NCBI RefSeq assembly: GCF_007280415.1
Contig: NZ_VKKU01000002.1
Span: forward strand, 930,001 to 994,000
Length of the DNA: 64,000 nucleotides
Reading direction: 5' to 3'
DNA from: Sphingorhabdus contaminans
Lineage (GTDB): Bacteria; Pseudomonadota; Alphaproteobacteria; Sphingomonadales; Sphingomonadaceae
Shown here: positions 1-63,669 of the stretch, one piece after another
Position numbering within the stretch: position 1 is the first letter of the stretch
How the letters are laid out: each line of letters begins with the position of its first letter
Notes under the pieces: model-generated
Databases searched by the model: none
What the model was told of the DNA's origin: nothing
Seen by the model: only the letters and a program-made list of their open reading frames with translations
Translations under genes and position numbers: made by a program

Positions 1-2395
1 CATCCTTGTCTGCAGGTGCCCAGGGGTCGGACAATATCCGCATGAAGTGGCTGTCGCCCTGAAAATCTTCTGCCTTGGAAACTGCCATTTTGTGCCGCAG
101 CAGGGATTTGGGTGTCATGACAACCAGCGGCTTGCGGAACGACCGCGCCATCTGACGGCGCAGCAGGTGGAAATAATTTGCCGGCGTCGTGCAATTGGCG
201 ACCTGGATATTATCCTCGGCGCAAAGCTGCAGGAACCGTTCCAGACGGGCCGAGCTATGTTCGGGACCCTGACCTTCATAGCCATGGGGCAACAACATCA
301 CGAGGCCGTTGGCGCGCAGCCATTTTGCCTCGCCCGATGCAATGAACTGGTCGATCATGGTCTGGGCACCATTGGCAAAGTCGCCAAATTGCGCTTCCCA
401 CAATACCAGCGTTTTGGGTTCGGCACCGGCATAACCATATTCATAGCCGAGCACGCCAAATTCGGACAGCGGGCTGTCCAGAACCTCGAACCGTCCGTGC
501 GGCAATGTCGAGAGCGGCACATATTTTTCTTCCGTGCCCTGATCGACCCAGACAGCGTGCCGCTGGCTAAACGTACCGCGGCCTGAATCCTGTCCCGAAA
601 GACGCACGCCAAATCCTTCCGACAGCAGGGAGCCGAAGGCCAGGGCTTCGCCTGTTGCCCAGTCAAAATTCTCGCCCGAAGTGAACATCGCCTTCTTCGC
701 GTCGAGAACACGGCCAAGGGTGGGATGGATATTCAGCGTGTCGGGCACCGATGTTAATGTGCGACCCAAGCTGTCGAACAGCTTTTTGGAAATGCCCGTT
801 TCAACGTTACGGCGCGCGGTTTCCGGATCGGCAGGCTTCGAAAGCCCCGACCAGCGTCCGCCAAACCAGTCCGCCGCATTGGGCTTGTAATCGGCGGCGC
901 CTGTAAATTCCTGCTCGAGCAGGGCGACAAAACGAGTCGCATGTTCATTGGCCCAGTCGGCATCAATCACACCTTCGGCCTGAAGCCTTTTGGCATAAAT
1001 CTCGCTGACGCCGGGATGGCCCTTGATCACCTTGTACATCAGTGGCTGGGTAAAGCTCGGCTCGTCACCTTCATTGTGGCCGAAGCGGCGGTAGCACCAC
1101 ATGTCGATCACGATATCGCGGTGGAATGTCTGGCGAAATTCGATGGCGATCTTGCACGCAAAGGTAACCGCCTCGGGATCGTCGCCGTTAACGTGGAAAA
1201 TCGGGGCCTGAACGCCCTTGGCAACATCCGAAGGATAAGGCGACGAGCGCGCATATTGCGGGCTGGTGGTAAAGCCGACCTGGTTGTTCACGATAAAGTG
1301 CAGGCATCCGCCGGTATTATAGCCGCGAATCCCAGAGAAACCGAGGCATTCCCAAACGATACCCTGTCCTGCAAAGGCCGCATCGCCATGCAACAGAACC
1401 GGCAGGACCTGCTCATGCTTGCCAAGGTCGCCGCGGGCGGTCTGGTTGGCGCGCACCTTTCCGAGAACGACCGGATTGACCGCCTCCAGATGGGACGGAT
1501 TGGGGACAAGGCTCATATGCACCTTGATGCCGTCAAATTCGCGGTCGGTGCTGGTGCCCAGATGATATTTCACATCGCCCGAACCGCCGACATCATCGGG
1601 ATTCGCGCTGCCGCCCGAAAATTCATGGAATATGATGCGATAGGGCTTGGCCATCACATTGGCCAAGACGTTCAGGCGGCCACGATGCGGCATGCCATAT
1701 ACGATTTCGCGGACGCCCAGTTGCCCGCCATATTTGATGACCGCTTCGAGAGCGGGAATCATGGATTCGCCGCCGTCCAGACCGAAACGCTTCGTGCCGA
1801 CATATTTGCGGCCCAGGAATTTTTCGTACTGTTCGGCTTCGATAACCTTGGCCAGAATCGCCTTTTTGCCTTCGGGCGTGAAGTGGATGGCGGCGTCCTT
1901 GCCTTCCATCCGTTCCTGCAGGAAACGGCGTTCTTCCACATCGGCAATGTGCATATATTCCAGACCGACGGGGCCGCAATAATTTGCCCGCAAGATGTCG
2001 ACCAGTTCGCGCACGGTCGTCCATTCAAGACCCAGCGTTCCGCCGACAAATACTTTCCGGTCCAGATCAGCGCCCGAAAAACCATGATATTCCGGGGTCA
2101 AATCCGCCGGTATTTCCTGCTTGGAAAGGCCAAGTGGGTCCAGATTGGCCGCAAGATGGCCGCGCACGCGATAGGTACGCACCAGCATCATGGCGCGAAT
2201 GGAATCATTCGCCGCCGCAACCGCGTCGGCCTCTGCCATTTGCTTGCCCGCCGCCTTGGCCGCAGCCTTCACCTCGACCACCATCTGGGTGGGGTCGAGC
2301 GATGCCGTCAAATCGTCGGTGACCGATAAAGGCCAGTTGGCGCGCTCCCAGCTGGGACCGCGCTCAATTTCAAAATCCTGGTTCTCAAGACCCAT
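1..2395 (-). CDS. sucA: 2-oxoglutarate dehydrogenase E1 component (3' end outside window)
   Basis: This is the E1 subunit of the 2-oxoglutarate dehydrogenase complex, which decarboxylates 2-oxoglutarate with thiamine diphosphate in the TCA cycle. The frame is open from an ATG (MGLENQDFEIERGP) at 2395, preceded by an AAGGAAGG Shine-Dalgarno, to the left edge, giving 798 codons. The family is usually about 930-950 residues, so roughly the last 140 are missing. Visible family motifs are MPHRGRLNVLANVM, the thiamine-diphosphate region around NGDDPEAV, YRRFGHNEGDEPSFTQP, and the C-terminal GQGPEHSSARLERFLQL. It lies about 38 bases downstream of sucD and is probably cotranscribed with mdh and sucD. 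The next gene to the left is likely sucB, but that is not visible. Confidence 0.97.
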   Translation of the reverse strand, partial: MGLENQDFEIERGPSWERANWPLSVTDDLTASLDPTQMVVEVKAAAKAAGKQMAEADAVAAANDSIRAMMLVRTYRVRGHLAANLDPLGLSKQEIPADLTPEYHGFSGADLDRKVFVGGTLGLEWTTVRELVDILRANYCGPVGLEYMHIADVEERRFLQERMEGKDAAIHFTPEGKKAILAKVIEAEQYEKFLGRKYVGTKRFGLDGGESMIPALEAVIKYGGQLGVREIVYGMPHRGRLNVLANVMAKPYRIIFHEFSGGSANPDDVGGSGDVKYHLGTSTDREFDGIKVHMSLVPNPSHLEAVNPVVLGKVRANQTARGDLGKHEQVLPVLLHGDAAFAGQGIVWECLGFSGIRGYNTGGCLHFIVNNQVGFTTSPQYARSSPYPSDVAKGVQAPIFHVNGDDPEAVTFACKIAIEFRQTFHRDIVIDMWCYRRFGHNEGDEPSFTQPLMYKVIKGHPGVSEIYAKRLQAEGVIDADWANEHATRFVALLEQEFTGAADYKPNAADWFGGRWSGLSKPADPETARRNVETGISKKLFDSLGRTLTSVPDTLNIHPTLGRVLDAKKAMFTSGENFDWATGEALAFGSLLSEGFGVRLSGQDSGRGTFSQRHAVWVDQGTEEKYVPLSTLPHGRFEVLDSPLSEFGVLGYEYGYAGAEPKTLVLWEAQFGDFANGAQTMIDQFIASGEAKWLRANGLVMLLPHGYEGQGPEHSSARLERFLQLCAEDNIQVANCTTPANYFHLLRRQMARSFRKPLVVMTPKSLLRHKMAVSKAEDFQGDSHFMRILSDPWAPADKD

Positions 2396-48238: not shown

Positions 48239-48351
48239 CAGAATTTTGCATTTGTCGATTTGACGCATAGTTTGGTTTATAAATTTTAACCATCTTTCAT
48301 TAACTTGGTCGGGTGCGGGCATTTGCCCTCACACGACCGGGAGAGTGGGGC

Positions 48352-49629
48352 ATGGGTTTGTTTGTGGAGTCCTTTTTTTCCAAAGACATTAAGGCGGTAT
48401 TGTCTCAGCCTTGGTTTGTTGCCGTGCTTCTTATTACCATGGCACCGGGATTACACGCCATTGCAACGTGGGATCTTGACGGCCGACTTTCGTCCACCGC
48501 CTACGCAGTCCGCCATTATTCGTACATGGTTGTTCTCGTTGAAATTTTAGTCATCTGGTTGGCGTTGAGAAATGATCTGTCTTTCTCGAATACCTTTTGG
48601 GAGCTTCCAAAACGTGTACGAACGCTGCTGGCTTTATGGCTAACTTTTTCGTTGATCGCATTGTTTTCGACCATGTCCGGTCTGTCCAACGCGTTATTCA
48701 CTTTAGTTCGCTACTTAACCCACGGATTCTTTTTGGTTTCTTTGGTTCATTTACTGAGCAAGAGCAACCGGTTCGATATTCAAATTTCGCTCAAGGTTTT
48801 GAGCGCTGGTGCCGTAGTCTATGTGGTTCTGCTGGCTATATTCTGCATTCTGGTTCCAAATCCCCAAGATTTTCCTTGGGTCAGAAGGGTGCCTTCGGCG
48901 ACTAACATTCGTCAGATTGGGAACAATGTCGGGTTATTAGCTATTGCGCCTGTTGCCCTACTGATGGCTTCCAAACGTCGTTCCTGCGTTGGTCCGACAA
49001 TCGCCTTTGTAATTATACTATCTTTTGCAACTTGGACTGGCAGTCGTGCCACTTTACTGGGGTTATTCTTTGGAATTGCCTGCGGTTTGGTAATTGTTAG
49101 ACACTTCACAACTTTAAGAAACATGGCCTCGGCTGCAGTAGCTGCTGTCATGTCAATTTTGATATCCGTAGCCATGCCAGTACCAGACCCGACTTTTGGC
49201 CTTTTTAGGCTTGTGAAAGCGAGTGGCGAACAGGACGATCCGTCAAGCGGCAGATGGGAGCTGTGGGCACAGACATGGGAGCAGATAACTCAGTCACCCT
49301 GGATAGGACATGGCGCTGGCAGGTATCGTGACGATATGAACCTGCATTTCGGAACCACATGGAATCACCCCCACAATTTTATTCTGCAGTATCTTTATGA
49401 CTGGGGCTTCGTTGGGGGGAGCATAGCGTTAATTTTACTTGCTATTTTGGGTGTCGCGATCCTGCGCAGAACCAAAGCCGATCCGCTATCGCGCTTTATA
49501 GCAATCACGGCTTATTGTGCGATTTGCGCCACGGCGATGATTGATAGTCCACTTTTCCATCCCCTACCGATTATGATTGCTTTAACCTTAATTGCTCCGG
49601 TGTTTGCAATTGCTAAGGAGTCATTATAG
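48352..49629 (+). CDS. O-antigen ligase/polymerase-like membrane protein
   Basis: A polytopic membrane protein of 425 residues from the O-antigen ligase (Wzy_C) family. It starts at ATG 48352 (MGLFVESFFSKDIKAVL) with GGGAGA upstream. About ten hydrophobic segments are present. The periplasmic loop contains SRATLLGLFFGI before it and WELWAQTWEQITQSPWIGHGAGRYRD, with NHPHNFILQYLYDWGFVGG, whose HPHN pattern is typical of the family. It may ligate polysaccharide to lipid A core or polymerise it. It begins the polysaccharide region on the plus strand, upstream of a convergent TonB-like gene. Confidence 0.82.
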   Translation: MGLFVESFFSKDIKAVLSQPWFVAVLLITMAPGLHAIATWDLDGRLSSTAYAVRHYSYMVVLVEILVIWLALRNDLSFSNTFWELPKRVRTLLALWLTFSLIALFSTMSGLSNALFTLVRYLTHGFFLVSLVHLLSKSNRFDIQISLKVLSAGAVVYVVLLAIFCILVPNPQDFPWVRRVPSATNIRQIGNNVGLLAIAPVALLMASKRRSCVGPTIAFVIILSFATWTGSRATLLGLFFGIACGLVIVRHFTTLRNMASAAVAAVMSILISVAMPVPDPTFGLFRLVKASGEQDDPSSGRWELWAQTWEQITQSPWIGHGAGRYRDDMNLHFGTTWNHPHNFILQYLYDWGFVGGSIALILLAILGVAILRRTKADPLSRFIAITAYCAICATAMIDSPLFHPLPIMIALTLIAPVFAIAKESL

Positions 49630-49681: not shown

Positions 49682-50467
49682 CTATTCAGCAATATCGTCG
49701 GCAGCCTTGGTTGCAAAATCGAAATGTATCCGGACCCAAACGCCCAGCTGCGCCTTGTTATCAATCCGTGGCGGCTTGACGAGGAATTGCCATGCCGCGA
49801 GCCGTAATGCTTTGGCGAGCCCGGTGCCTCGCGGATTTTCACCGATAATCTGACAGTTTTCGACCCGGTTGCGTTCGGCCATGCGACAGGCGATGTCCGC
49901 GGATGCGCCGGGAGGGATGCGTTTAACAGCGGCCAGATAAGGGGCCAGCTCGGCAATATAAGGTTCGCGCAGCCAGGCCACGGGATAGAGTTGCGCTCCA
50001 CCGGGGCCAAGGCCGGGTCCTATCGCTCCATTCGATCCCAGTCTGGATTCGGAATTGTTTCCCGAACTTGCACTACCGCCGCTCGATAATTTAGACAGGT
50101 CCATAGCTTCAAAATTCGATTTGCTGACCCTTATAAAGTCCGGACTAGGCGGAGGAGCTTTTACCGGGTTTGCCGTTGGTAGAAGCGGTCTGGGGATAGG
50201 GGAGGCAGACTTGCGCTGCTGGGCCTTTGCCGACGAAGTTTTGGTTTCGCTCTTCTCGTTAATCTTGGAGGCGTCCTTTGCGTTGAGGGAAAATGTGCTT
50301 AGGCCCTGTCGTGGCCCGTCGGAAACGGCTGGCTGAACAGTCAGACTAAGGATCGCAAAAATAAACAGTGCTTCAAAAAGCAGTGCGACAGCAAAAAAGA
50401 AGCCACGCTGCTGAAATGAATCCCTTATCGACCCATTAAAATGATCGTTCCGTTTAATTGGCGCCAC
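49682..50467 (-). CDS. TonB-like protein with Pro-rich linker
   Basis: A 261-residue protein with one N-terminal membrane segment (RGFFFAVALLFEALFIFAIL), a 90-residue linker rich in Ser, Pro and Lys (SPIPRPLLPTANPVKAPPP), and a C-terminal domain (IACRMAERNRVENCQIIGENPRGTGLAKALRLA, then VWVRIHF) that resembles the TonB C-terminal fold. It starts at a GTG at 50467. TonB usually couples the proton motive force to outer membrane receptors. Here it sits between two O-antigen ligase-like genes, so a role in polysaccharide export is possible but unproven. Confidence 0.72.
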   Translation of the reverse strand: MAPIKRNDHFNGSIRDSFQQRGFFFAVALLFEALFIFAILSLTVQPAVSDGPRQGLSTFSLNAKDASKINEKSETKTSSAKAQQRKSASPIPRPLLPTANPVKAPPPSPDFIRVSKSNFEAMDLSKLSSGGSASSGNNSESRLGSNGAIGPGLGPGGAQLYPVAWLREPYIAELAPYLAAVKRIPPGASADIACRMAERNRVENCQIIGENPRGTGLAKALRLAAWQFLVKPPRIDNKAQLGVWVRIHFDFATKAADDIAE

Positions 50468-50517: not shown

Positions 50518-51921
50518 TTAAGATTTTAAATTACTTACTGATTTGGCGCGCAATGGTTGAGAGGAATTTCTGGAAAACCAAAGCAATATCAAGGCAAAGA
50601 CACTCATGAAAAATGGAGTTCGCAAAGGATAATCCAAGGCACTAGCGGCGGCTATCATAAAGATAAGATACCCTCCCATGCGCGCCATGGACACGGAGAT
50701 AGATTGGCCGTCTTTACGAAACCAAATATCAAATGAGCGCCAAACTAAGGCAACAATTCCTATGGCAAGGAGAATTGTACCGCCAATCCCAAAACTCAGC
50801 GGTATTTCAAGATATTCGTTGTGGGCACTATTTAGATAAGTTGTGTCTAGCAATAGCCTTGGCTCGTGCTGCTCGTATACTGTTGCAAATGAACTTGCAC
50901 CCGAACCCCAAGGCCAATAGTCAAATAGATGCCTTATAGATGCGACCCAAAACTGGCCTCTTTCATCATCGGCAGAATCTTGGAATATCAACCTTTCGAT
51001 TGCTTCCGCCCGCGAAAGAACGAGCGCAGTTAAGGTTAAAGAAATTATAAGAAAAGCCATGACCAAAGGAAAAACATATCTCGCAGCTTTTTTGCTTCTA
51101 TTGGGCATAGAATTTATATGGGAGAGATATATGGCCGCTGCTCCGATGAGCCCCATTACAGTAGTCATGACGCCTGACCGAGAACCTGTCACAAGTACCA
51201 GGGGTATAATTACAATTGCAATGCACATCGTAATTACTGCGGTAGTTTTGGTCCCCCGACCCTTTGAAGCTCTCTGAATATAAAAGACTGCCAATAGGGG
51301 CAACAGACAAGCTAGAAATAATGCCGCGTGATTGCGGTTTGCAAACAAGCCGACTGCGCTGTTGTTATTGGTAATGTTGTACAAATGATATGTAGAACCA
51401 CCTCCACCAACAATTTGCATTAAACCTAAGAGACCAGAAAGCGCGCCTAATCCAACGATCAAAGTGATAAATCGATCAAGATCGGGGGTTCTTAGCTGCA
51501 CTCCCAAAATGAACACTGCAAGAGCAGGAACTACAAAACTAACTGAAACCCAGCTCTCCATTGGGCTGACAGACAATGGGCGCCATTCATCCGGCAAACC
51601 TGAAATGTCGCCGATTTCCAAAATCAAGGCTCTGCCCGGCTGCGCTCTCCAAATTTCAGGTGGCAACGGAATTAAATGCATAAATGCGAGCAAAAGTACT
51701 GCTGCGTAGCCTACTAGTGCGTATCGATGATCTCTAAGTTGGCCGAATTCAAGCGTCGACAGGCCAATTGCACAAACTACAATTGAGCAAGGTAGGAGAA
51801 ATGCTAATGATTGCACGTCTGACCGTGAGGAGCCGCCAGTGAGCGCCAGAATCATCATAAAGCAAGCCAGAGTCCAAAATTGGATTGGTTTTGAAATGGT
51901 TTGTCTTTGGAAATGAAACAA
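50518..51921 (-). CDS. O-antigen ligase/polymerase family membrane protein
   Basis: A 467-residue polytopic protein of the Wzy_C family with about twelve hydrophobic segments. It starts at a TTG at 51921 with AGGA seven bases upstream. The conserved block is VTGSRSGVMTTVMGLI, followed by the periplasmic loop SIRHLFDYWPWGSGASSF, and LNSAHNEYLEIPLSFGIGG, where the SAHNEYLE pattern is characteristic of ligases and capsule polymerases. It shares family but little sequence with the protein at 48352. The role may be polymerisation of the repeat unit. Confidence 0.8.
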   Translation of the reverse strand: MFHFQRQTISKPIQFWTLACFMMILALTGGSSRSDVQSLAFLLPCSIVVCAIGLSTLEFGQLRDHRYALVGYAAVLLLAFMHLIPLPPEIWRAQPGRALILEIGDISGLPDEWRPLSVSPMESWVSVSFVVPALAVFILGVQLRTPDLDRFITLIVGLGALSGLLGLMQIVGGGGSTYHLYNITNNNSAVGLFANRNHAALFLACLLPLLAVFYIQRASKGRGTKTTAVITMCIAIVIIPLVLVTGSRSGVMTTVMGLIGAAAIYLSHINSMPNRSKKAARYVFPLVMAFLIISLTLTALVLSRAEAIERLIFQDSADDERGQFWVASIRHLFDYWPWGSGASSFATVYEQHEPRLLLDTTYLNSAHNEYLEIPLSFGIGGTILLAIGIVALVWRSFDIWFRKDGQSISVSMARMGGYLIFMIAAASALDYPLRTPFFMSVFALILLWFSRNSSQPLRAKSVSNLKS

Positions 51922-52194: not shown

Positions 52195-54393
52195 ATGATG
52201 CAAAACATCTCTCCCGTCGTGGAATCCGCGCAATTTGGTGAATCTAGACTGGAAGGAAATCAAACAAATTTTGCACCTCCGATATTGTTGCAAGTTTGGC
52301 AAGTGGTGCTTCGTTGGAAGTGGGTCATCTTCGGTGTAATTGCCTTCGCCTTGGCGATTGGCTTGGTTGCAACGATTTTAGCTACCCCACAGTATACGGC
52401 GACGGCTAGGATAGAGATAAGTCGCGAGCAGAAGAATGTCACCAACGTTCAAGGAATTGAGTCTGCGGAAGCGGCGCGCAATTTGGAGTTCTATCAAACA
52501 CAGTATAACTTACTCGAAGCAAGGTCGCTTGCGGAGCGAGTTTCGCGCGAGCTCAAATTAGGTAGCAGTGATTCTATTTTTAAGGTGCATAACGTTAATC
52601 CTGATGAAGGTAGTTTGTTTTCGTTAAAGTCTAACAACCCTCCTACCGCAAAAGAAAGACAGCGCCGGGAGAAGCTTGCGGTAGATCTCCTGCTGAAGCA
52701 CATTTCCATTTCACCCATCCGAAACTCAGCATTAATCGATATTAGTTATACCAGCGCTTCGCCATCTTTTTCGGCGCAGATAGCTGATACATGGACGCAA
52801 CAGTATATTATCCAAAGCATGGACCGTCGATTTGCATCAACTGCGGATGCACGTAAGTTTCTCGAGGGACGGCTTGCGGATTTGAAAGCCCGTCTGGAAA
52901 CATCAGAGCGTGAACTGGTTAGCTACGCTGCAAACAAAGGGATAGTTGCTCTCGGAAAAAGCAAAAGCTCAGATGGCAAAACGGAAATAGAGCGTACTCT
53001 TGTGTCGAGTGACTTGGAGTCTTTGAATTTGGCACTCGCTCAGGCAACGGCGGACCGAATTTCTGCCGAAAGCAGAGCTCAACAGCGGTCTGGCGGGGCT
53101 AATAGTGCAGCGTTGAATAACATAGCGATCTCGCAACTACGGCAGAAGCGGGCCGACGTAGAATCAGAGTATTCGAAGTTACTCGTTCAATTTGAGCCAG
53201 GTTACCCAGCAGCTAAGGCACTTGCGGAACAGGTGCGAGCTTTGGATACAAGTATTGCTCGAGAAGAGGCGCGGGTGTCGTCCAGTCGCTCCGCCGAGTA
53301 TCGAGAAGCTTTACAAAGAGAGGAGAATTTAAGGCAACAGGTGGAGTCGTTAAAGGCGAGAATGAACTTACAGCAACGTGACAGCATTCAATATAACATT
53401 TTTCAGCGTGAAGCGGATACCAATCGCGAACTCTATGACGGCCTTTTACAGCGATATAAAGAAATCGGTGTAGCGGGAGTAGGGGCTAATAATATCGCTA
53501 TCGTGGATAATGCCAAGATACCGGACAAGCCTTCATCTCCGAATTTACCCCTGAACTTAGCACTTGCATTAGTCGCAGGAATTGGCCTTTCAGCAATGGC
53601 AACATTTGCTCTGGAGCAAATTGACGAAGGTCTGCGAGATCCGAATCAAGTTCAGCGACTTCTGCAAATACCGCTACTTGGAAGTGTTCCGGATATTGAA
53701 GATGAAAACGCGTTAGCTTTGCTGAGTGACGCGAAGTCCGCGCTGTCAGAAGCCTATTTAAGCATTAGATCCAACTTGGCCTTTTCGACTGATCACGGTG
53801 TCCCACGAGCATTTATGGTAACCAGTACGCGACCTGCTGAAGGGAAAAGCACGACGAGCATAGCGCTTGCGACAATGTTAGGCCGAACAGGAAAGCGCGT
53901 TCTTTTAATCGACGCAGACATGAGATCGCCATCTATGCATCATTTTACCCAACAGAAGAATGACATTGGATTGAGCAACTTTCTTGCAGGAGAAAATGAT
54001 TGGCAGCGTCTTATTCTTCCTACTGACATTAAAAATCTGAAATTGCTGCCTGCAGGACCAATGCCGCCAAGCGCAGCGGAACTGCTTAGCAGTGACCGGA
54101 TGCTGATGCTCATAAACCAGATGGGGGACCATTTCGATCACATCGTTATCGATTCTCCACCCATTCTTGGCTTGGCAGATGCGCCATTATTGGCGCGAGC
54201 TGTCGAAGGATGTGTATTCGTAGCTGAAGCTGAGGGTGTTGCCATTCGCGGAATCAAGGGTTCTTTGGGTCGCTTGCAGTCAGTTCATGCTCACATTTTT
54301 GGCGTAGTCCTAACAAAATTGAAGCATCGCCAAGCCGGCTATGGCTATGGCTATGGCTATGGCTATGGTTACGGCGCCAGTGATAATGAATAA
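52195..54393 (+). CDS. Wzc-like polysaccharide co-polymerase and tyrosine autokinase
   Basis: A fused Wzz/GumC-type chain-length protein and BY-kinase of 732 residues. The N-terminus has a cytoplasmic part and a first membrane segment near 41-65 (VIFGVIAFALAIGLVATIL), then a long periplasmic helical domain (about 80-440) and a second membrane segment near 455-475. The cytoplasmic kinase has Walker A RPAEGKST near 549, Walker A' LIDADMRSP, and Walker B IDSPPILGLADA. The tail is a tyrosine cluster, GYGYGYGYGYGYG, the autophosphorylation site. It controls polymer length and export and is the usual partner of Wzy. Confidence 0.93.
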   Translation: MMQNISPVVESAQFGESRLEGNQTNFAPPILLQVWQVVLRWKWVIFGVIAFALAIGLVATILATPQYTATARIEISREQKNVTNVQGIESAEAARNLEFYQTQYNLLEARSLAERVSRELKLGSSDSIFKVHNVNPDEGSLFSLKSNNPPTAKERQRREKLAVDLLLKHISISPIRNSALIDISYTSASPSFSAQIADTWTQQYIIQSMDRRFASTADARKFLEGRLADLKARLETSERELVSYAANKGIVALGKSKSSDGKTEIERTLVSSDLESLNLALAQATADRISAESRAQQRSGGANSAALNNIAISQLRQKRADVESEYSKLLVQFEPGYPAAKALAEQVRALDTSIAREEARVSSSRSAEYREALQREENLRQQVESLKARMNLQQRDSIQYNIFQREADTNRELYDGLLQRYKEIGVAGVGANNIAIVDNAKIPDKPSSPNLPLNLALALVAGIGLSAMATFALEQIDEGLRDPNQVQRLLQIPLLGSVPDIEDENALALLSDAKSALSEAYLSIRSNLAFSTDHGVPRAFMVTSTRPAEGKSTTSIALATMLGRTGKRVLLIDADMRSPSMHHFTQQKNDIGLSNFLAGENDWQRLILPTDIKNLKLLPAGPMPPSAAELLSSDRMLMLINQMGDHFDHIVIDSPPILGLADAPLLARAVEGCVFVAEAEGVAIRGIKGSLGRLQSVHAHIFGVVLTKLKHRQAGYGYGYGYGYGYGASDNE
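54337..54372 (+). repeat. in-frame GGCTAT tandem repeat encoding Gly-Tyr
   Basis: Five exact copies of GGCTAT (54337-54366) and one variant GGTTAC (54367-54372) encode six Gly-Tyr pairs at the end of the Wzc-like kinase. The unit is six bases, so slippage changes the number of tyrosines without shifting the frame. Tyrosine clusters at this place are the phosphorylation target in this family. Confidence 0.95.
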
Positions 54394-58912: not shown

Positions 58913-59680
58913 TTAGCTTTCTTGAAGTGCTTCTTCTAGCGCAGAGTATTCAGGGTACGAAATCAACACGGCTTTATGTTTGCCATAAAAAACGAACATG
59001 CTGCCAGCAGAAACCGCTGAAGCACCTCCCTGCTGGACCGCTTGGCGAAAATGCTCAATAGATCCAGCGCCTCCTGAGGCAATTACAGGAATGGAGACGG
59101 CTTGGCTAATCAGTTCGATTAGATGCAAGTCATATCCCATCATTTCACCCTCGTGATCTATGGACGTAAGCAATATTTCTCCTACGCCCAGGTTTTGGGC
59201 ATTCAAGGCTGCTTCAAGCGGCTTAAGACCTACTGACTTTGTGCCCGACTTAATCATTACATCTCTGTTTCCAAATAACCTCCGCTTAACGTCGATCGAT
59301 GCGATGATGGCTTGGCTGCCAAAAATCGAAGCCGCTTCTCTAATCATTTCAGGGTTTGAATGTAAGGCGGTATTAACAATGATTTTTTCTACACCGAGCC
59401 GTAGTAGCGTATGGAAATGCTCAATTTTTGTGACGCCCCCACCATATGCAAGTGGCATGAAACACTCAGAAGCAATTTCTTCTAAGAATTCAAAATCGGG
59501 CTCACGTTCCTCACGCGTTGCCGCGATGTCGAGCAATACCAATTCATCGACTTCCTTGTCATTGAAAATGCGGATAGCATTTATGGGATCGCCTATGTAG
59601 ATTTCATCTTTAAATCTGGACGTTTTCACCAGCCCACGATTCTTGAGCAATAAGCAGGGTATAACTCTGTGACGTAGCAT
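58913..59680 (-). CDS. HisF-like cyclase subunit for amidino modification (HisF2)
   Basis: A 255-residue HisF paralogue; start ATG 59680. Catalytic Asp11 of histidine-pathway HisF, in CLDVKDGRVVKG of Thermotoga, is replaced by Leu here (CLLLKNRGLVKT), while the second aspartate of LLTSIDHEGEMMGYD is kept. This agrees with a role as ammonia channel, not imidazole glycerol phosphate synthase. It has ASGGAGSIEHFRQAVQQGGASAVSAGSMFVF at the C-terminal phosphate sites. It lies one base downstream of hisH-like and two bases before wbpG-like, forming a trio. Confidence 0.9.
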   Translation of the reverse strand: MLRHRVIPCLLLKNRGLVKTSRFKDEIYIGDPINAIRIFNDKEVDELVLLDIAATREEREPDFEFLEEIASECFMPLAYGGGVTKIEHFHTLLRLGVEKIIVNTALHSNPEMIREAASIFGSQAIIASIDVKRRLFGNRDVMIKSGTKSVGLKPLEAALNAQNLGVGEILLTSIDHEGEMMGYDLHLIELISQAVSIPVIASGGAGSIEHFRQAVQQGGASAVSAGSMFVFYGKHKAVLISYPEYSALEEALQES

Positions 59681-59681
59681 A

Positions 59682-60302
59682 TTAAACCATTTCCACGAAG
59701 CCACGCAATAGGGCCTTCCCAAAACGATGGCTCTTCTCTGGATGAAATTGGAACCCGTAAAGATTTTCATTTTGGAACGCCGCGTCAAATGCAGTCAAGC
59801 CATGCTGAGCGCGTAAGAGAACATCGCCTGCGTTCTCGCACCGAACAAAGTAAGAATGAACAAAGTAGAAACGTGCGTCCTTGTCGACAAATTGCAGAAC
59901 GGGGCTATTCTTCGCTAACGTAACCGTATTCCAACCCATATGCGGAACTTTTACGATTTCATCAGAGTCGGGGTTGAACCGTATCGCTTTAGCGGCGACC
60001 CAACCCAGACCGGGAGTCGTGCCTTCTTCGCTTGACTCCGTCATAAGTTGCATACCGAGGCAAATGCCGGCAATGGGTATTTTTCTAACCAATGCTGCAT
60101 CGTCTAGGGTGCTTTTTAATCCCGACCTAATAAGTTGACCCATGCCAGCGTCAAAAGCTCCTACGCCAGGTAGTATTAACTTCGACGCACGTTCAATTAC
60201 TCTTGGATCGGAGGTTATCTCCACGATGGCGCCAAGTCGCGTGAGCATATTCTGTATTGAGCCCAAATTTCCCACGCCATAATCAACGATCACGATAGTC
60301 AA
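59682..60302 (-). CDS. HisH-like glutamine amidotransferase, copy near WbpG
   Basis: A 206-residue class I glutamine amidotransferase. The catalytic cysteine is in GICLGMQLMTES, the His-Glu pair in GFQFHPEKSH, and VPHMGWNTVTL is the usual HisH loop. It hydrolyses glutamine and passes ammonia to the HisF-like protein encoded one base downstream. The start overlaps the end of the 60283 gene by about 20 bases. The location next to WbpG shows that the pair serves sugar modification, not histidine biosynthesis. Confidence 0.93.
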   Translation of the reverse strand: MTIVIVDYGVGNLGSIQNMLTRLGAIVEITSDPRVIERASKLILPGVGAFDAGMGQLIRSGLKSTLDDAALVRKIPIAGICLGMQLMTESSEEGTTPGLGWVAAKAIRFNPDSDEIVKVPHMGWNTVTLAKNSPVLQFVDKDARFYFVHSYFVRCENAGDVLLRAQHGLTAFDAAFQNENLYGFQFHPEKSHRFGKALLRGFVEMV

Positions 60303-61734
60303 TTTCCAAAACCTCTTCTACAAATTTGGTGAAATTTGATATCCAATCCAATTCGAAAAACTCGGTGTATTGAACTGAGTTACTATGTTTTTGATTTTGA
60401 GCCGTCGCTAGAATACTTCCCAGTTCATTAAACGATAAAAAGCTTGGAAACGGAGGGTCTGGCAATGCGAACCGGGATTTTGGGGTAGACCACATCAATG
60501 GCTTGCATCCCATCGCCGCTGCTTCAAACAATCCTGTAGATAGCTCGCTTATTACGAAAAGGGATCTACTAAGAGTATGATAAATATTCGGATTACTGTC
60601 TATTTCCACACCTTGTGGTAAATTAATACTTTGCAGTCGTTCTCGTTCGATGGGGTGTGGTCTAAATAGAACGCGCTTCGCACCAATCTCGGAATTGTTT
60701 CTAATGTCATTGGCCAAGGATATGTAAGACTGAGTGTCAAATCCATCGCCGAGTATTAGAATATCACTCTTATCGGCTGGCTCATATGTTCTCTTTAATG
60801 ATTCAGCGAAATGTGGGTTGCCCACAGCGATTTTCGCTACGGGCATGTTAAATTGCGCATTCCACCATTTGCCATACGTAAGCATATAATGCGGGAGTGT
60901 CTGCCGAAATCCAGTATGCGCGATCACATGGTCACCAATATTGTACCCGTCATGTCCACTTGAAATCATTCCGTGCTGATATTCGGCGGTAACAACTTTG
61001 GCCATACGGGCGGCCTGGATCACCCCTATCATATTACTCCCCAAGCATCCGTCTTCAAGCATAAGAAGCCGGATTTCCCGCTTCAGAAACCATCGATAGT
61101 AGTAATCAACTATTTGGGGATAGGTGGCCAGCCGGTGGGAAAGCATCGCGGCGAGGGTATTAACCTCCTCGTCGCTGAGGTCAAAGCCGATGATGGTACG
61201 AGCACGTAAGGCTGCCATAGCGATAACAGTTAATGCCAAATCCCGATGCTGCTTGCTGGTCCGGCACCAGCCCAATGCGTGTGCTCGCACTTTTGAGGGT
61301 GTATTGTACAAGGTATTGGTGGGGGCAAAGTTTTTCGGCCACGTCCAGTTTCCATGCCCTTGAAAAATCAATGACTGCTTGGGACTGGCTTCGGCAAGAG
61401 AGCTTGCTAACCGATCGCGCGTGCAATCGAGTTCGGCATAATTTCCCAACCCAGTCGTTAAAAAGCACACCTGGGCCTGTTTGGGTTGTGAAGTTACATT
61501 ATGCCATAAAGAACGTATCAGATAACGGGCTTTCCTAGGATATCCCCTCTGGGTGAAATTAGCCCCCATAATTGGACGCTCATAGAAAACTTTTCCAATA
61601 ATAGTACGTATAAAGGCTAACCGGATAAATGCCCATGCCGGTATGTCTGTTGTTGGGCAGTTGAAAGCGAGTAAGTCGGGATCATTCTCAACCGCCAACA
61701 AATCAATTAGATTAAAAAATGGCTGTTGAGACAT
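60283..61734 (-). CDS. putative GT-B-type surface polysaccharide transferase
   Basis: A 483-residue protein I cannot place in a named family. It is cytoplasmic with no membrane segment. The pattern is of a GT-B fold: EYQHGMISSGHDGYNIGDHV near 265-285, GNPHFAESLKRTY, ILGDGFDTQSY, LFRPHPIERERL, and SELSTGLFEAAAMGCKPLMW in the C-terminal lobe, like the donor-binding site of capsule and CDP-glycerol-type transferases. Start ATG 61734 overlaps the Wzx stop (TGATG). Its place in the operon argues for a transferase of the repeat unit. Confidence 0.6.
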   Translation of the reverse strand: MSQQPFFNLIDLLAVENDPDLLAFNCPTTDIPAWAFIRLAFIRTIIGKVFYERPIMGANFTQRGYPRKARYLIRSLWHNVTSQPKQAQVCFLTTGLGNYAELDCTRDRLASSLAEASPKQSLIFQGHGNWTWPKNFAPTNTLYNTPSKVRAHALGWCRTSKQHRDLALTVIAMAALRARTIIGFDLSDEEVNTLAAMLSHRLATYPQIVDYYYRWFLKREIRLLMLEDGCLGSNMIGVIQAARMAKVVTAEYQHGMISSGHDGYNIGDHVIAHTGFRQTLPHYMLTYGKWWNAQFNMPVAKIAVGNPHFAESLKRTYEPADKSDILILGDGFDTQSYISLANDIRNNSEIGAKRVLFRPHPIERERLQSINLPQGVEIDSNPNIYHTLSRSLFVISELSTGLFEAAAMGCKPLMWSTPKSRFALPDPPFPSFLSFNELGSILATAQNQKHSNSVQYTEFFELDWISNFTKFVEEVLEIDYRDR

Positions 61735-63005
61735 CAATTTTTGCACATTTTATTTAATAAGCCAAACCACGGCATGCGATAGCAATATTGAGCCAAAGCC
61801 CACGTCGTCAAGAACAGTAAGATCTGCCCAATCATGAATGAAATGGCTGCTCCCAATAACCCGTAATTTTGAATTAGGAAAATACTAATTAAAAAAGCTA
61901 CAATTCCGGTAGAAATGGTTGATAAAGACAATAAGCCTGTTCTAGTTGAAAAGAAAACATAGTTCGTAACCATGTAGTACATTCCAGTAAAGGCATTGCC
62001 CAAAAACATAAAAAAAGTTATTTCTGAAACTTCTATGAATTCAGGTCCAAGTAAAAATGGGATAAAGAATTCTATTGTAATAGAAAGAATAATAGCTACG
62101 AATATGATACCCAAAAAATATAAATATGTGTAGTAAACAATAGTAGATTTTTCTTCCAAACTCGCGTTGGTAAGTTTCTTCATAAGCCAAGGAGCAAAAG
62201 CACGGTTGGATGCATCAGCCAAAATACCGAGTATCAATCCAATTTGAACTGCCGCGAAATAAATGCCTGTACTTCCAATATCCATAATTTTTGTCACGAG
62301 CAGACGATCTGCCATACTCAGTATCAGACCGCCAACTGCATGTGGCATGAGTGGGAGGCCGTAGCGAAGCGCATCGGCAATGTACTTCTTGTCAACTACA
62401 TTACTGACCCAGCCTTCTTTTCGCAGCTTAATAAATGCGAAAATAGCGATTACGCTCCAAGCGATTGCTAGCCCGGATAGGCGACCTTCCCAAGACGCCA
62501 TCAAGCCCACAACTAAGAAAATCGACAGAACACTGTCTGTGATTGCATGACTAAGTCTGAGCACTCCATACGAAAGAGCCCGATCTGAGCATTGCCATAA
62601 TGTCAGTAAAAGCTGAACCAAAAACTGGCAGCCCGCTAATCCGACCGCGATAATTAGCCAGCTCACCGGCAGGGTTGTAAGCGATAGCAACGGTGTCGGA
62701 AAAACTGCGATCAATGCTGAAGTAACGAATACACTCGATAGCAATATCAAAAACACAGATGAGACGTATTTTGACAGCGCGATCTTCGAGTCAAAAAAAC
62801 GGACCATAACCGCGCCATGAGTGTTGAAACCGACAATGATAAAAAGAAAGGAGCTCACGACGGTAAACATTCCAACTTTGCCATAATCGTCGGCTGATAA
62901 GTATCGGGTAAGAATTGGAAGCAAAATTAACGGTACGCCTGCGACAGAAAAGTTAGCCAAAGCGTAAATAGCGGCATTGCTTAATAAGGATCGCTGGAAT
63001 TTCAC
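61734..63005 (-). CDS. Wzx-like polysaccharide flippase
   Basis: A 423-residue member of the oligosaccharide flippase (PST/MOP) family with about twelve to fourteen transmembrane segments. Signatures are SNAAIYALANFSVAGVPLILLPILTRYLSADDYG at the N-terminus (Wzx-type start) and YGLPLMPHAVGGLILSMADRLLV near 215-237. It flips undecaprenyl-linked repeat units across the inner membrane so Wzy can polymerise them. It begins ten bases after the second hisH-like gene and overlaps the start of the transferase gene, so the operon order is hisF-hisH-wzx-GT. Confidence 0.92.
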   Translation of the reverse strand: MKFQRSLLSNAAIYALANFSVAGVPLILLPILTRYLSADDYGKVGMFTVVSSFLFIIVGFNTHGAVMVRFFDSKIALSKYVSSVFLILLSSVFVTSALIAVFPTPLLSLTTLPVSWLIIAVGLAGCQFLVQLLLTLWQCSDRALSYGVLRLSHAITDSVLSIFLVVGLMASWEGRLSGLAIAWSVIAIFAFIKLRKEGWVSNVVDKKYIADALRYGLPLMPHAVGGLILSMADRLLVTKIMDIGSTGIYFAAVQIGLILGILADASNRAFAPWLMKKLTNASLEEKSTIVYYTYLYFLGIIFVAIILSITIEFFIPFLLGPEFIEVSEITFFMFLGNAFTGMYYMVTNYVFFSTRTGLLSLSTISTGIVAFLISIFLIQNYGLLGAAISFMIGQILLFLTTWALAQYCYRMPWFGLLNKMCKN

Positions 63006-63015
63006 TAGTGTTAAT

Positions 63016-63669
63016 TCAAACCACCGTTTCGAGAAAATGTGATAATATCTTGAGTCCGACTTTACCGCTCTTTTCAGGATGGAACTGCAGGCCCGATATA
63101 TTGCCGGACTGGATCGCAGCAGTTATATGATGGCCTCCATAACGGTATGTCGCTAAGATATTTGCTTCTGACTCAGGGGCGTATTGGTAGGAATGAACAA
63201 GATACACGGCGTCTTGCGGAGAGAGGCAAGCAATAGCGTTTTTGTGGCTGTTGATCGAATCGTGCAGCTCGAGAGTGCTCCATCCAATAAATGGCGATTT
63301 TAGTGTTATTCCGCTTTTGTCGGTCATTGGAATTCGAACAACCCGGCCCGGTATGAGATCGAGCCCTGAGTGTTCACCAAATTCGGTACCTTTTGTTGCG
63401 AGCAACTGCATTCCGAGGCATATACCCAACATCGGCCGACCGAACGAAGCGAACTCCCGGATCGCTGCAGCTATTCCTTGTCGTTCCAACCCGTCCATAC
63501 CATCTCGAAATGAACCAACACCTGGAATCACAAGTCGCTCAGCGTTTAAAATATCTTCAGGTGATGTGGCAATGCGGATCTCTGATGCACCGCTTGTCTG
63601 CAAAGCCCGCGTCACGCTAAACAAGTTACCGAGTCCGTAGTCAACTATTGACACACAAGATTTGCTCAT
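63016..63669 (-). CDS. HisH-like glutamine amidotransferase, second copy
   Basis: A 217-residue class I amidotransferase distinct from the copy at 59682-60302 (about one third identical by eye). The catalytic motif GICLGMQLLATKG and the LQFHPEKSGKVG His-Glu pair are intact. It has a longer middle region, RVVRIPMTDKSGITLKSPFIGWSTLEL, where the loop near the active site is replaced by FIGWS. The ATG overlaps the stop of the partial hisF-like gene by four bases (ATGA), so the two form a unit. It probably supplies ammonia to that partner. Confidence 0.9.
   Translation of the reverse strand: MSKSCVSIVDYGLGNLFSVTRALQTSGASEIRIATSPEDILNAERLVIPGVGSFRDGMDGLERQGIAAAIREFASFGRPMLGICLGMQLLATKGTEFGEHSGLDLIPGRVVRIPMTDKSGITLKSPFIGWSTLELHDSINSHKNAIACLSPQDAVYLVHSYQYAPESEANILATYRYGGHHITAAIQSGNISGLQFHPEKSGKVGLKILSHFLETVV

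Follow-up and report, generated by a model that had tools for sequence, protein, structure and literature searches.

A Wzc-type tyrosine kinase gene within a polysaccharide cluster

In the 64-kb stretch of DNA analysed here (hereafter the window), a single plus-strand open reading frame of 732 codons encodes a protein in which the Wzz, GNVR and AAA_31 domains (PF02706, PF13807 and PF13614) score above their Pfam cut-offs and the tyrosine autokinase domain TIGR01007 above its NCBIfam cut-off. The gene and the features of its product, apart from the C-terminal tail, are as follows.

52195–54393, plus strand: coding sequence of a 732-aa Wzc-type polysaccharide co-polymerase/BY-kinase (PCP-2a; Pfam, NCBIfam, PDB)
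52285–52554, plus strand: Wzz chain-length-determinant domain, residues 31–120 (PF02706, 45.8 bits, cut-off 25.5)
52312–52314, plus strand: Arg40, at the alpha-1 place of an acidic residue (D28 in K30, with partner K701; MAFFT alignment with E. coli K-12 Wzc)
53401–53610, plus strand: GNVR domain, residues 403–472 (PF13807, 47.9 bits, cut-off 27.7)
53824–53853, plus strand: Walker A motif STRPAEGKST, residues 544–553 (E549, G550 and K551 invariant in 96 orthologues; aligns with Wzc K540)
53899–53925, plus strand: Walker A' motif VLLIDADMR, residues 569–577 (D573, D575 and R577 invariant)
54139–54162, plus strand: Walker B motif HIVIDSPP, residues 649–656 (D653 and P656 invariant)
54250–54252, plus strand: Gly686, aligned with Glu675 in the tyrosine pocket of E. 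coli Wzc (alignment column with G in 46 and E in 1 of 96 orthologues)

With Wzz and cytoplasmic BY-kinase parts in one chain, the motifs PAEGKS, LLIDADMR and HIVIDSPP, and a C-terminal tyrosine cluster, the protein is, by its sequence, a member of the Wzc/PCP-2a-type tyrosine autokinases, and the first-pass annotation was right to call it a Wzc-like kinase. Wzc and CapB are the nearest PDB chains by sequence, and full-length Wzc chains are the top PDB fold matches of an AlphaFold2 model whose domain placement is uncertain (mean pLDDT 79, pTM 0.42). The kinase domain of this model superposes on CapA1B1 at 1.6 Å, and residues 714–732 are predicted to be disordered.

The surrounding cluster includes three genes for polysaccharide assembly:

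50518–51921, minus strand: divergent neighbour of the kinase gene, Wzy-type polymerase/ligase (Wzy_C; PF04932, 50.3 bits)
48313–49629, plus strand: second Wzy_C-type polymerase/ligase (PF04932, 84.2 bits)
61734–63005, minus strand: Wzx-type flippase (PF01943, 69.1 bits)

It also holds genes for a glycosyltransferase and for HisF- and HisH-type amidotransferases; the latter comprise HisF-like and two HisH-like genes (58913–60302 and 63016–63669, minus strand), i.e. duplicated amidotransferase subunits, which would belong to probable sugar-amidination modules. Between the two Wzy-type genes, positions 49682–50467 (minus strand) encode a proline/serine-rich protein of ~260 aa without a Pfam match. 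No gene for a cognate phosphatase or Wza was found within the window; candidates elsewhere in the same genome are two LMW-phosphatase and three Wza-type genes. Compared by gene type, the cluster is similar to that known as Cluster B in Sphingomonas sp. LM7, a locus for a cell-associated polysaccharide with a Wzc autokinase (RS19310), Wzy, a HisF2/HisH-type amidotransferase and an N-acetyl sugar amidotransferase (PMC11340318); the window has PF00977, PF00117 and PF02540/QueC-type genes in the same stretch. Judging from this gene content, the product of the window cluster is possibly a capsule.

A hexanucleotide array encodes the tyrosine tail

The final coding stretch of the kinase gene comprises two features:

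54337–54372, plus strand: hexanucleotide array encoding Gly-Tyr x6, residues 715–726 (tyrosines 716, 718, 720, 722, 724 and 726)
54373–54390, plus strand: tail end GASDNE, which differs among orthologues (disorder predicted from residue 714)

Read directly, the array consists of five GGCTAT units and one GGTTAC, with GGC GCC AGT GAT AAT GAA TAA directly 3' of it; in frame it reads GYGYGYGYGYGYG, and the translated protein ends in ...KLKHRQAGYGYGYGYGYGYGASDNE. TRF reports a perfect 5.3-copy array of 32 bp, by a wide margin the top tandem repeat of the window. The first-pass annotation had described the five copies plus a near copy exactly, had placed them correctly in the C-terminal tyrosine tail of the kinase, and had rightly noted that a change in unit number stays in frame. 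Its expectation that tyrosines would change two at a time was off by a factor of two: one unit encodes Gly and Tyr, two residues with one tyrosine, so that a slippage step adds or removes a single tyrosine.

The array is not expected by chance, as the motif pattern gave four overlapping matches there against a mean of 0.02 in shuffled sequences. A fifth match, GYEYGY at 431–448 (minus strand), lies inside a sucA-like (2-oxoglutarate dehydrogenase-like) open reading frame and was dismissed as chance.

The number of tyrosines is nearly constant among orthologues

A search of 44 other genomes of the genus and 80 loci from named genomes yielded 96 unique proteins, including that of the window. Among these orthologues, which are related genes and hence non-independent samples, the tyrosine total is six in 61, and the unbroken YxY chain has a modal length of six (60 of 96; five to eight in 89). 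Constancy is more pronounced at closer range: exactly six alternating tyrosines occur in 19 of the 20 orthologues with at least 65% identity, with differing codons, and the remaining one has eight. Tail length is equal in all six pairs at 92–99% identity, the closest pair of unequal length being the loci L010 and L011 (six and eight; 90.9% identity). Two plasmid copies of the gene in Sphingobium yanoikuyae (97% nucleotide identity) differ by one synonymous tail codon and are the same in tail length and tail protein. A family-wide pattern scan found (GY)4G or longer in 113 of 397 genomes, and three overlapping pattern matches, equivalent to six units, look commonest.

These counts bear on the idea, put forward in the first-pass annotation, that the array is a contingency microsatellite, with copy number differing from lineage to lineage and polymer length tuned thereby. 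A perfect 32-bp array of in-frame units is what such a locus would look like, the near relative L011 carries eight units, nearly all of them GGG-TAT, and codon sharing within arrays (see below) suggests that units turn over. In pneumococcal serotype 19A, moreover, wze varies by one [YGX] repeat between subtypes, a tail-length polymorphism in a related system (PMC8519296). Against this stand the near-constant count in the near orthologues, the equal tails of the close pairs, the identical tail proteins of the S. yanoikuyae plasmid copies and the many orthologues in which E, D, S or Q breaks the DNA repeat with six tyrosines kept. The invariance of repeat number that the first-pass annotation had itself named as contrary evidence is nearly attained in these relatives. 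A contingency repeat between species is thus not supported by the sequences compared, in which the species of the window is represented by one genome, and we regard this explanation as decidedly unlikely. The eight units of L011 were not accepted as proof of variability: this is a single case, and its contig stops shortly after the tail.

Codons are replaced far more often than length is altered: on a tree of 36 genes, length changes at least five times, against 75 codon changes summed across 11 codon sites of the 28 six-unit arrays. Eight-rung ladders occur in separate branches (L079, L108, L011, L087 and L101). Since three of these (L011, L079 and L108) adjoin six-rung relatives, changes by two units at once may be preferred to changes by one. 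Part of the constancy in count could also come from a mere absence of mutation and need not be due to selection.

The ladder is kept at the protein level

In the last 50 residues of the 96 orthologues, 94.4% of Tyr-Tyr spacings are exactly two, as are all five spacings in the window protein, which gives it an unbroken YxY pattern. The first tyrosine lies eight residues past a conserved lysine in 79 of the 96. The intervening residue is far less uniform: glycine predominates (385 occurrences), followed by E (22), S (20), D (17), A (7), Q (7) and N (5), and interruptions such as YGYGYEYGYGY are found among the relatives. As E, S, D, A or Q often replaces glycine, the constrained feature is, on this comparison, the Y-x-Y-x-Y ladder of the protein and not a DNA microsatellite. 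A microsatellite acting purely at the DNA level was rejected, since intervening codons become those for E, D, S or Q and the tyrosines are kept. This retention of tyrosines at every second residue suggests that selection acts on the ladder itself.

A Gly-Tyr tail might alternatively serve mainly as a sticky low-complexity segment, for self-association or docking, and not as a phosphorylation counter; the preference for glycine between tyrosines and the predicted disorder of the tail would fit such a role. We nevertheless hold it to be very improbable: acidic or polar residues replace glycine with tyrosines and spacing kept, the kinase motifs are intact, and the homologous E. coli tails are proven phosphorylation sites (PMC8285477).

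Codon sharing within arrays points to unit turnover

Given a (GY)6 protein, a run of at least five identical units, as seen in the window gene, has a probability of ~0.006 under the codon usage of the gene itself and of 0.002 under that of 11 window open reading frames. In 23 near orthologues, adjacent Gly or Tyr codons are identical in 158 cases against 96 expected from own-gene usage (~1.6-fold), with sharing above expectation in 19 of the 23 genes, whereas in the remainder of the same genes successive Gly and Tyr codons reach 0.989 of expectation. Shuffling codons between arrays likewise left an excess (z = 6.3 for Gly and 3.4 for Tyr). The genes are related to each other, and the signal leans on a few arrays: without L011, L013 and L005, the pooled-array z values are 1.8 for Gly and 2.8 for Tyr, and the own-gene test stands at ~6. 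More distant orthologues show a small excess (z = 2.4).

Could the DNA repeat be a mere by-product of a conserved (GY)6 protein and codon preference, with slippage or mutation playing no relevant part? Among more distant orthologues, many arrays mix their codons and show no surplus of identical units, and the adjacency statistic for the window gene alone gives p = 0.10, both as this explanation would have it. On the other hand, codon sharing within arrays exceeds both own-gene and pooled-array usage, and the run of five in the window gene is itself improbable at the values given above. The arrays of the sister genes L010, L011 and L013 (82–91% identical) are dominated along their whole length by GGC, GGG and GGA, respectively, a wholesale switch that is hard to achieve by point changes. 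A mere by-product therefore seems unlikely to us. The excess sharing is instead a mark of unit turnover; units probably turn over, with slippage as the simplest cause. Of the slippage scenario in the first-pass annotation, past slippage or unit turnover is indicated by codon homogeneity, and lineage-variable copy number is not supported.

A putative step counter related to the E. coli ratchet

The tail tyrosines of E. coli K30 Wzc move in turn, beginning at the C-terminus (C-to-N), into the active site of the neighbouring subunit, a second tyrosine, two residues upstream, occupies a pocket, and the octamer disassembles after the fourth phosphorylation (PMC11986026, PMC8285477). In a 3YE background, the substitution N711Y stabilised the tail and raised phosphorylation (PMC11986026). 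The window protein shares with K30 Wzc (PDB 7NHR, 9EXO), its top fold match, the order Wzz-GNVR-BY-kinase-tyrosine tail, the Walker A, A' and B motifs and the YxY tail. The ladders differ in continuity: that of K30 is broken (Y706, Y708, a gap with N711, then Y713, Y715 and Y717), whereas that of the window protein runs unbroken over six rungs from Y716 to Y726.

Two further details differ. The pocket residue Glu675 of E. coli Wzc, proposed to reject phosphotyrosine, is replaced by Gly686 and recurs in a single orthologue. The K30 ion pair between alpha-1 and alpha-23, D28-K701, is absent, with Arg40 and Arg712 at these places; in the column of E29 of E. coli K-12 Wzc (MAFFT), 87 of the 96 orthologues have arginine. 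Because of Gly686 and the missing D28-K701 pair, the ratchet cannot match that of E. coli in every detail, and the sphingomonad ladder may work like it without being identical.

By analogy with E. coli, we infer a ratchet that advances in two-residue steps over about six rungs. In this reading, the array specifies the tyrosine tail of an autokinase that would govern polymerisation and export of a surface polysaccharide; the tail takes the form of about six tyrosines spaced two residues apart, immediately C-terminal to the kinase domain. Each rung would correspond to a single step of the YxY phosphorylation ratchet published for Wzc, a phosphatase would reset the tail, and the number of rungs would fix how many steps a single assembly cycle can hold. 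The count would stay near six because each rung is such a step, and the DNA repeat would be near-perfect because alternating Gly-Tyr codons are prone to slippage: units would be gained and lost and so homogenised, with alleles far from six removed by selection. To the observed repeat, ladder geometry, conserved count, codon sharing and kinase motifs, this account adds by inference tail phosphorylation, octamer cycling, selection behind the constant count and slippage behind the codon sharing. Overall, a conserved ladder of about six rungs, with unit turnover and selection holding the count near six, is the likely explanation of the array. Its more specific form is put forward tentatively: a slipping repeat clamped in length, in which unit gain and loss homogenises codons and selection maintains a six-rung step counter that operates without the pocket glutamate of E. 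coli.

Relation to other systems and atypical copies

The field views Wzc-dependent polymerisation as controlled by total phosphorylation and not by particular tyrosines. A 2025 review describes the number and arrangement of tyrosines as poorly conserved across species (PMC12220298). Sphingomonads contrast with this description, since within one family a ladder of about six rungs is kept free of gaps, with changing codons and intervening residues. This makes them a natural and non-pathogenic test system, both for the relation of rung number to polymer amount or length and for the need for the pocket glutamate.

Pneumococcal CpsD/Wze similarly carries a short in-frame tyrosine repeat, [YGX]3-4, at the C-terminus of a BY-kinase (PMC8519296). 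There, the kinase is a separate polypeptide (PCP-2b) and the period is three residues, as opposed to one chain and a period of two in the window protein; repeat number is reported to differ between pneumococcal subtypes (3 vs. 4) and is nearly constant between sphingomonad species. BY-kinase tyrosine tails are well established, and a repeat-number polymorphism in such a tail is on record for pneumococcus (PMC8519296). The titles and abstracts listed for slippage or tandem repeats in wzc contained nothing on tail length, and the motif GYGYGYG was absent from the papers listed. Mildly new, in our view, are three features of sphingomonads: the near-constant, unbroken ladder of six rungs, the surplus of shared codons in it and the absence of the pocket glutamate.

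Several atypical copies came to light alongside these comparisons. One genome of the same genus (G008, C1:768230–770327) holds, near an intact gene, a second wzc-like copy in three adjacent frames (matches to residues 14–110, 106–343 and 338–727), apparently a decaying paralogue. On a Sphingomonas paucimobilis plasmid (NZ_CP065671.1:5895–9265), a Wzc-type gene match is divided, with an annotated transposase of the IS3 family in between, and on another plasmid of this species (NZ_AP023324.1) a Wzc-type gene lies in three pieces. Finally, a record titled Arthrobacter sp. TPD3018 (L113), an actinobacterial name, contains a sphingomonad-type Wzc with the ladder YGYGYGYEYGYSY; the assembly is probably mislabelled or contaminated.
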